Source: Deltaproteobacteria bacterium (GTDB lineage Bacteria > Desulfobacterota > Dissulfuribacteria > Dissulfuribacterales > QOAL01). Taken from it: DNA of 64,000 nt. The position numbers were made by a program, and so were the translations under genes. Shown one piece after another: positions 14,124 to 52,704 of the stretch. Location: assembly GCA_024275145.1 (NCBI GenBank), contig JAJRZR010000035.1, forward strand, positions 1-64,000, written 5' to 3'. How positions within the stretch are numbered: the first letter of the stretch is position 1; each line of letters opens with the position of its first letter. The notes under the pieces were generated by a model, which saw only the letters and a list, made by a program, of their open reading frames with translations, had not been told where the DNA came from and did not search any database.

Positions 14124-14190
14124 GTTTTCAGCAGGCCTGTCCCGCTTGCGCCAGTGCCCGGGCACAAAAATACCGCCCCAATGGGGCATG
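14122..14190 (+). repeat. IR-80 structured repeat copy (divergent)
   Basis: aggttttcagcaggcctgtcccgcttgcgccagtgcccgggcacaaaaataccgcccc matches consensus core. Confidence 0.45.
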
Positions 14191-14274
14191 CCTGTGGTAA
14201 AAAATCCGGTCCATAGACCAACCTTGGGATATCGGGCAGATCCATTTGCCCATATCCCGTGAGGGGCATCACCC

Positions 14275-14530
14275 TGGATTATGCAGCTCGTAAGTTTGCC
14301 AAAGATGCAAGGCGGAAGGACACGTAAGACCTACTTGTATACTTCAACTGCCCGACAACGCAGTAAATTCGGCAAAATCGTGCGCCCCTTGCGGCTTCAA
14401 ATGCTGGATGATTTCGTTGAGAAGTGCTGCACCTTCTGGGTGAACCGAATAGGATGCTGATTTGCTTATAACATCTTGTAATTTTAACGCAATTCTATTT
14501 ATTCAGCATTTGAAGTGCATAATTTGGGAT
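14275..14530 (+). mobile_element. MITE-like interspersed element, copy A
   Basis: ggattatgcagctcgtaagtttgcc...ttcagcatttgaagtgcataatttgggat; near-identical layout to copy at 37033. Confidence 0.7.
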
Positions 14531-26222: not shown

Positions 26223-26244
26223 ATCAAGTCGGCCGAGCATGACC

Positions 26245-26515
26245 TACAATTATGCAGATTGCAAGTTTGCCGAAAAGATGCCAAGCGGAAAGGCACGCGA
26301 GATGTGCTTGGGTACCTCAAGGCTCGGCAACGCAGCAGATCAGGTAACATTACGCGACCCTTGCGGCTAAGATGCCTGAGATATAGTATATCATATCCAA
26401 TAAGCCCTGCATTTTAGGTGCAGGGTTTGATGATCTTATAAGCTGCATATAATAATTGTTTGAATTATTTAAGACAAATCATTTACTCAGACCTTTGAAA
26501 TGCATAATCTGGGAT
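26245..26515 (+). mobile_element. MITE-like interspersed element, copy B
   Basis: acaattatgcagattgcaagtttgccgaaaagatgccaagcggaaaggcacg...cctttgaaatgcataatctgggat. Confidence 0.65.
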
Positions 26516-29778: not shown

Positions 29779-29858
29779 AAACTTTCATACCTAGCCTTTG
29801 CACAGGCACCCCCGGACATAAAAATCCAGCCATGATGAAGGGCGCATTTTCACGCTCA
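29779..29858 (+). repeat. IR-80 repeat copy
   Basis: aaactttcatacctagcctttgcacaggcacccccggacataaaaatccagcc...ggcgcattttcacgc. Confidence 0.65.
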
Positions 29859-30320
29859 ATTTTTCACTTCAAGTACCGAACGAATTTGATCGGATTTCAG
29901 GGCACCATTCAAGTAAATATCCATATATTTAACTATTTTAAATAAAAAATTTTTATCAGATGCTGGGAGTGCATGATTTGTGTTCAGGGAATCGTGACTG
30001 CACATCCTGTCTATACAGGAATTCATATCCCTAGAAAACGAGATGGCGAAGTGTACGGTCAGAAAGCATAACACAAGTAGCTGCTTGTCCCAAGACATGG
30101 CTTTGCTATCAATAACATAATTATTCCTGTTTTTATACCTGCAGGATACATGTTCCACCCCCTCCTACAGACCCAGTTCGAACCATCCCCTCGAAACCGG
30201 GATATTTCATGCTATCGTTTTTTTCAAAATCTCTCACAAAGTTTATTGACAATTATTATCATCTATGATAGTTTGTTATTAATTGTAAAAGAGTCGCAAT
30301 TACATTAAGGAGGCCCTGAA

Positions 30321-36879: not shown

Positions 36880-37032
36880 GCTCCTTTAAATTCCCACGGG
36901 TGCAAGGGAGACATTGTGCCTTTGCCATATGGTTTTCTGGTACATGGGGCGTAGAAGGTTTTAAAATACACCCCCATCAGGGATGTATTTTCATGTCAGG
37001 GGGCGCCTGTACGGGGCCTGCTCAGGCATGAA

Positions 37033-37288
37033 CCCGGATTATGCAGCGCGCAAGTTTGCCGAAGACGCAAGAGGGAAGGACACGCAGACGTACTTGTGTA
37101 CTTCAACTGCCCGATAACGCATCAAATTCGGTAAATTGCGCGCCCCTTGCGGCTTCAAATGCCGGATGATTTCGTTTAGAAGTTGTTGCACCTTTCGGAT
37201 GAACTGAATAGAATGCTGATTTGCTTGTAACATCTTGTATTTTTACGCAATTCTATTTATTCAGTATTTGAAGTGCATAATTTGGGAT
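37033..37288 (+). mobile_element. MITE-like interspersed element, copy C
   Basis: ggattatgcagcgcgcaagtttgccgaag...tcagtatttgaagtgcataatttgggat. Confidence 0.7.
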
Positions 37289-37302
37289 GAAAGTTTTGGG
37301 AC

Positions 37303-52411: not shown

Positions 52412-52562
52412 ATCCAAATTATGCAGCTTGCAAATTTGTAAAGAGCAAGCCTGATTCCATAGCACCTTTTTAGTGAATGTTCACATGTCTCAAAATAGTC
52501 ATAACCGCCTTAAATGAAAGAGGAAGTGTTTTTATTCGACATTTGAAGTGCATAATTTGGGT
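52412..52562 (+). mobile_element. MITE-like interspersed element, copy D (internally deleted, ~150 bp)
   Basis: 12-bp perfect TIR: CCAAATTATGCA...TGCATAATTTGG. Confidence 0.7.
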
Positions 52563-52704
52563 CGAAGGACCATCCGGCCATGAACCAGGATCATGTGGTT
52601 CACGAGCTTGGCGAAAAGGCAAGAGCCTGGCACGAGCACGACCCATCGGTCGAATTATGCATCCAAGGGAATCGGAACCGCGGCCCTCCCCTCTATAAAG
52701 GGGT

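Follow-up and report, generated by a model that had tools for sequence, protein, structure and literature searches.

An IS1380-ended MITE family with a conserved whole-element fold, most likely of a + sense RNA

The window, the whole 64,000-nucleotide stretch of DNA analysed here, carries four copies of a ~255-bp family, and the 2.65-Mb host genome has about 90 in all. We consider it probable that these are MITEs moved by an IS1380 transposase and selected for a fold that involves the whole element, most likely as RNA of the + sense. According to this model, an IS1380-family DDE transposase acting in trans would recognise the CCCRRATTATGCA ends and insert the element into intergenic DNA, duplicating 5 bp (NTNAW). 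A single strand would fold such that both terminal inverted repeats (TIRs) pair as a closing stem, the left arm would bear a conserved core hairpin whose conserved positions include unpaired bases, and the right arm would pair with a portion of the right end. The core is probably the binding site of a widely conserved protein, which would aid either the spread or the tolerance of the element.

A mobile family with IS1380 ends

The initial annotation had proposed four copies of a MITE-like repeat in the window. All four were recovered with slightly shifted boundaries and lengths of 149-270 bp (Table 1), and their ends are indeed inverted repeats, ~13 bp long with the sequence CCCRRATTATGCA. Copies A and C, described as highly similar from end to end, are 88% identical across their length, and the interior contains no open reading frame of transposase size, as had been noted. 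The single orientation reported for the copies holds within the window, where all are on the + strand, but not genome-wide, where both orientations are common. Family size, the IS1380 link, the covarying fold and the cross-phylum core had escaped the first reading.

Table 1. Coordinates of the element copies and their parts in the window
Feature	Position	Strand	Remarks
Copy A, full-length element, 256 bp	14273-14528	+	Flanks ATCAC/ATTAC (one mismatch)
Copy B, old divergent copy, 270 bp	26244-26513	+	Flanks ATGAC/ATGAA (one mismatch)
Copy C, full-length element, 254 bp	37033-37286	+	Perfect 5-bp target duplication ATGAA
Copy D, internally deleted element, 149 bp	52413-52561	+	Flanks TTAAA/TCGAA (two mismatches)
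Target duplication ATGAA left of copy C	37028-37032	no strand	
Target duplication ATGAA right of copy C	37287-37291	no strand	
Copy C left TIR, 5' side of closing stem P1	37033-37045	+	
Copy C right TIR, 3' side of closing stem P1	37274-37286	+	
Copy C left arm (P2/P3) with core hairpin GATGC(R)AGGC...CAAC(RM)AGCAGAT	37046-37143	+	
Copy C right arm (P4), CTTCAAATGCC...GTATTTGAAG, variable loop	37153-37273	+	End points approximate
Possible decayed left-end fragment directly after copy D	52578-52615	+	Repeat search family D2, 63%; weak
Probable decayed right end (CAGATGCTGGGAGTGCATGATTTGTG)	29935-29984	+	Repeat search family D1, 62%; weak

A BLAST search of the genome with copy A returned at least 44 matches (E down to 1e-131), at least 43 of them besides copy A, a lower bound because 40 of the 123 candidates were scored. 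With a covariance model built on the leftmost 131 nt of the element, we obtained 100 matches at E <=0.01, about 90 of which are distinct once second-strand duplicates are removed. Full-length copies with a recognisable right end were found at 55 of the 92 places examined and span 236-272 bp, while shorter copies are internally deleted. The 5-bp flanks are identical in 27 of the 55 full-length copies and differ by one mismatch in 10, compared to an expectation of ~0.05 identical pairs for random flanks. The repeat family and its flank duplications are far above chance. This defines a 5-bp target-site duplication with the consensus NTNAW; among the perfect duplications, T occupies position 2 in 26 of 27 and A occupies position 4 in all 27. 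Placement is intergenic in 89 of 92 cases, with a predicted gene overlapped in 3, and orientation relative to tandem neighbours is weakly biased (29 vs 16). On host contigs C15, C16, C20 and C80, elements abut or lie tens to hundreds of bases apart, which suggests nested or clustered insertion. The element was detected in 26 of 99 relatives searched, all in the host's order, and a search for carriage by phages or plasmids gave no match.

A second intergenic palindromic repeat (AAAATACANCCCTGATGGGGNTGTATTTT) was observed near several element copies, in the window at 36964-36990 and, by eye, also at 14160-14205 and 29800-29850. A strict pattern for this repeat gave six distinct matches in host-genome loci, two of which are both strands of one palindrome.

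Empty orthologous sites were sought in a congeneric genome (G001), and four loci (those of copies A and C and of two further copies) were found to lack the element. The site of copy A has a sigma-70 family gene on one side and a response-regulator gene on the other, and nothing of the element is present there in the relative. At the resolved locus the host reads ATTTGAA-element-TTGAAAGG and the relative TTTTTGAAGG, a clean empty site with a single TTGAA; the boundaries at A, C and one other site are blurred by additional indels. In principle all four empty sites could be losses, but at the resolved site the single-copy target favours insertion.

The likely partner, judging from shared ends, is an IS1380-family transposase (NF033539 / PF13701), which would be the mover of the element. 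Exact CCCRRATTATGCA adjoins IS1380 genes in five genomes (G000, which is the host, G007, G026, G027 and G035), likewise with A/T-rich 5-bp duplications. The 13-bp end stands without mismatch beside the relatives in G007, G027 (two), G035 and G026 (two), and the G007 protein scores above the cut-off of model NF033539. Among the PF13701/PF01609-type transposases of the host, the only one with real coverage is a remnant with in-frame stops (C50:39920-41086) within a 1672-bp element whose ends are CCCGGATTATGCAGC and CCCAAATTATGCAGCTCGCA; an intact IS1380 gene was looked for in the host genome and not found, the local copy being decayed. No CCCRRATTATGCA ends were found beside the IS1380 genes of G012, G023 and G031, genomes that have no element match. 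Also counting against this partner, any IS1380 match was present in only 11 of 46 genomes of the host's order, compared to the element in 26 of 99 relatives; the transposase may have been lost or may lie at contig breaks.

Target duplications of IS1380-family elements are 4-5 bp. Internal deletion of an insertion sequence is one route by which MITEs arise. That origin was rejected for the interior of this family, which is unmatched to the 1672-bp copy, the likeness being limited to the outermost ~20 bp. The window element also differs from IS1380 in having no transposase gene. It is under 500 bp and occupies a site in one genome that is empty in a relative. Neither of the two refuting outcomes named in the initial annotation was observed: orthologous sites are empty, and an IS1380 family has the same TIR. 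Together these support the earlier suggestion of a non-autonomous TIR element, here a MITE with IS1380 ends and putative trans-mobilisation by IS1380.

An end-to-end fold kept by evolution

The element folds from end to end, with the TIRs forming the closing stem around two arms, and this pairing has been kept by evolution. A full-length alignment was made of 20 lineages, three of which had been found via the core model or pattern. Paired cells amount to 94.3% over the 20 lineages compared to at most 42% in slid controls, although the counted structure was taken from one member and the paired percentage alone leans toward that member. Compensatory change was observed in 33 of 62 pairs, a count reached in none of 500 shuffles, which ignore relatedness. 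Weight is placed on the slid controls and on the number of double changes, which occur in all five helices including the TIR stem. Folding of copy C was compared with that of shuffled sequences, giving a z of -4.5.

The same layout was found in divergent elements that belong to further families within the phylum and have CCTAAATTGAGCG, CCTAAACGTTGCA, CCCGGATAATTCAC or CCTGAATCCGTGA as TIRs, and in elements labelled Aminicenantes, with TIR CCTGGATTATTCAC. Those among them that were folded individually close likewise, and many have 5-bp duplications. A coding origin was considered and rejected: reverse-strand frames appear protein-like (e.g. VHQLLNEIIQHLKPQGARNFAEFAAL), but stops and frameshifts break every reading frame across genera while the base pairs persist. 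Neither the element nor the core hairpin matched Rfam 15 at or above the gathering score.

Among known bacterial MITEs, Chunjie (Geobacter uraniireducens, 235 bp) and QMITE2 (Coxiella), both reviewed in PMC10969869, resemble the family in size, TIRs, direct repeats, intergenic copies and a stable predicted transcript fold. Unlike theirs, the fold described here is backed by compensatory change seen between genera and between families, and the family has a core hairpin common to several phyla; Chunjie enters this comparison as described in the review. The earlier notice that may come nearest concerns 24 'predicted short RNA elements', left unnamed, in Geobacter metallireducens (PMC2700814, Additional file 4). 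They are intergenic and multicopy and have GRCGTAGCGCTGCTACGCC as a central palindrome, which resembles the apical portion of the core (e.g. GGCGTAGCCCTGCTACG in L135), and they are not presented there as a TIR element. The traits that distinguish the window family from other MITEs are its covarying whole-element fold and a core common to several phyla.

Apparent strand-specific selection and the nature of the folded molecule

An asymmetry was observed among imperfect stem pairs, with G-U exceeding A-C between lineages (60 vs 22 overall, and 49 vs 20 without the TIR stem). Changes private to single resident copies were balanced (33 vs 30), the strand-symmetric background to be expected once a copy has inserted: resident copies decay with no preference for either strand. 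No p-values are attached to these ratios because the samples are related by descent. The lineage excess combined with symmetric private changes thus appears to reflect selection that acts on a single strand and on the lineage as it spreads; the fold seems to be favoured in the propagating element rather than copy by copy among residents. MITE interiors are mostly thought to be passive. In this family the interior appears selected to fold while resident copies decay, and spread via a folded RNA or single-stranded DNA therefore becomes testable.

One-strand selection fits RNA, and it also fits single-stranded DNA of fixed polarity. The folded molecule is most likely a + sense RNA, with single-stranded DNA as the main alternative. 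Such a DNA form, arising for example on the lagging strand, would present the transposase with a double-stranded end already formed by the paired TIRs, as attC or IS200/IS605 substrates do. It would account for the joining of both TIRs in one stem and for selection on the spreading lineage with none on residents, and G-T is tolerated in DNA too, so the strand bias is compatible. However, a crude local test across the genome found no link between element orientation and local GC skew, with no replication-strand bias seen, and IS1380 elements are regarded as double-stranded cut-and-paste. On balance we regard this reading as rather doubtful.

It is less likely still that this is an ordinary MITE with an unselected fold, whose arms are kept complementary by template switching during replication. 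Quasi-palindromes can be corrected in this way, and the resident copies do appear neutral; yet correction should be symmetric, whereas the lineages differ 60 to 22, and it leaves the cross-phylum conservation of unpaired core bases unexplained.

A regulatory RNA or bidirectional signal that benefits the host at each site and is kept copy by copy would suit the intergenic placement of 89 of 92 copies, but sites are empty in the congeneric genome and private stem changes are neutral as to pairing, making this account highly improbable. Equally remote is the mobilisation of a REP-like hairpin by a Y1 (RAYT/IS200-like) transposase: a RAYT-like Y1_Tnp fragment (PF01797) does lie ~0.6 kb from the IS1380 remnant (G000 C50:38625-39014; L033:126-515), but no core hairpin adjoins it within the stretch examined, the Y1 HUH motif appears in none of the examined hairpin loci from other phyla, and TIRs with 5-bp duplications indicate a DDE enzyme. 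REP/RAYT hairpins (PMC2817692, PMC3733652) are likewise multicopy and intergenic, but REPs measure 20-40 bp, in contrast to an element with TIRs, target duplications and a ~255-bp fold, and no Y1 transposase gene flanked by core hairpins was found at the loci examined. The preferred reading is an IS1380-moved element selected to fold, most likely as RNA.

The core hairpin across phyla

The left arm contains a core hairpin, GATGCRAGGC...CAACRMAGCAGAT, that recurs in many phyla. A scan of one genome per species with the pattern GATGCRAGGC-N(38-67)-CAACRMAGCAGAT matched at least 119 stretches, compared to a chance expectation of ~2 in the whole collection (estimated from uniform base composition). 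Titles among the matches listed include Desulfobacterota, Pseudomonas, Porphyromonas, Chlamydiae, Omnitrophota and Aminicenantes, as well as Rokubacteria, Nitrospirae, Selenomonadales, Acidobacteria and candidate phyla, although some genomes may be mislabelled where the title derives from a metagenome. Searching the literature for the core sequences returned nothing relevant.

Two features that lie outside the search pattern support the hairpin. The core flanks pair better than swapped flanks, with 70% of the matches listed above the 95th percentile of swapped pairs, and 60 of 104 of the matches listed carry an apical GTA...TAC palindrome, compared to 1 in shuffles. Among the matches listed, the outer stems show a G-U excess across phyla (281 vs 139 A-C), whereas the inner stems have no G-U bias (113:111), which counts against the preferred reading. 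The unpaired bases of the core are conserved across phyla.

We tentatively propose that the core may be an undescribed structured nucleic acid of many phyla, a conserved functional module that would be carried by several DDE-type mobile elements and bound by a conserved protein as RNA or single-stranded DNA, with the window element representing one chassis folded around it, TIRs included. Through this shared core, a class of bacterial hairpins that is abundant but unannotated becomes accessible to study.

Single-hairpin cores from other phyla (L122-L201) often have their 3' end ~17-25 nt away from where a convergent gene has its stop codon, a spacing seen in roughly 20 of ~60 cases with such a neighbour and one that places the outer stem against the stop codon. 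By eye, the core also seems to lie just downstream of the end of a purH-like gene in Pseudomonas (L134, L137 and L190) and in Cryptobacteroides (L138; Bacteroidales).
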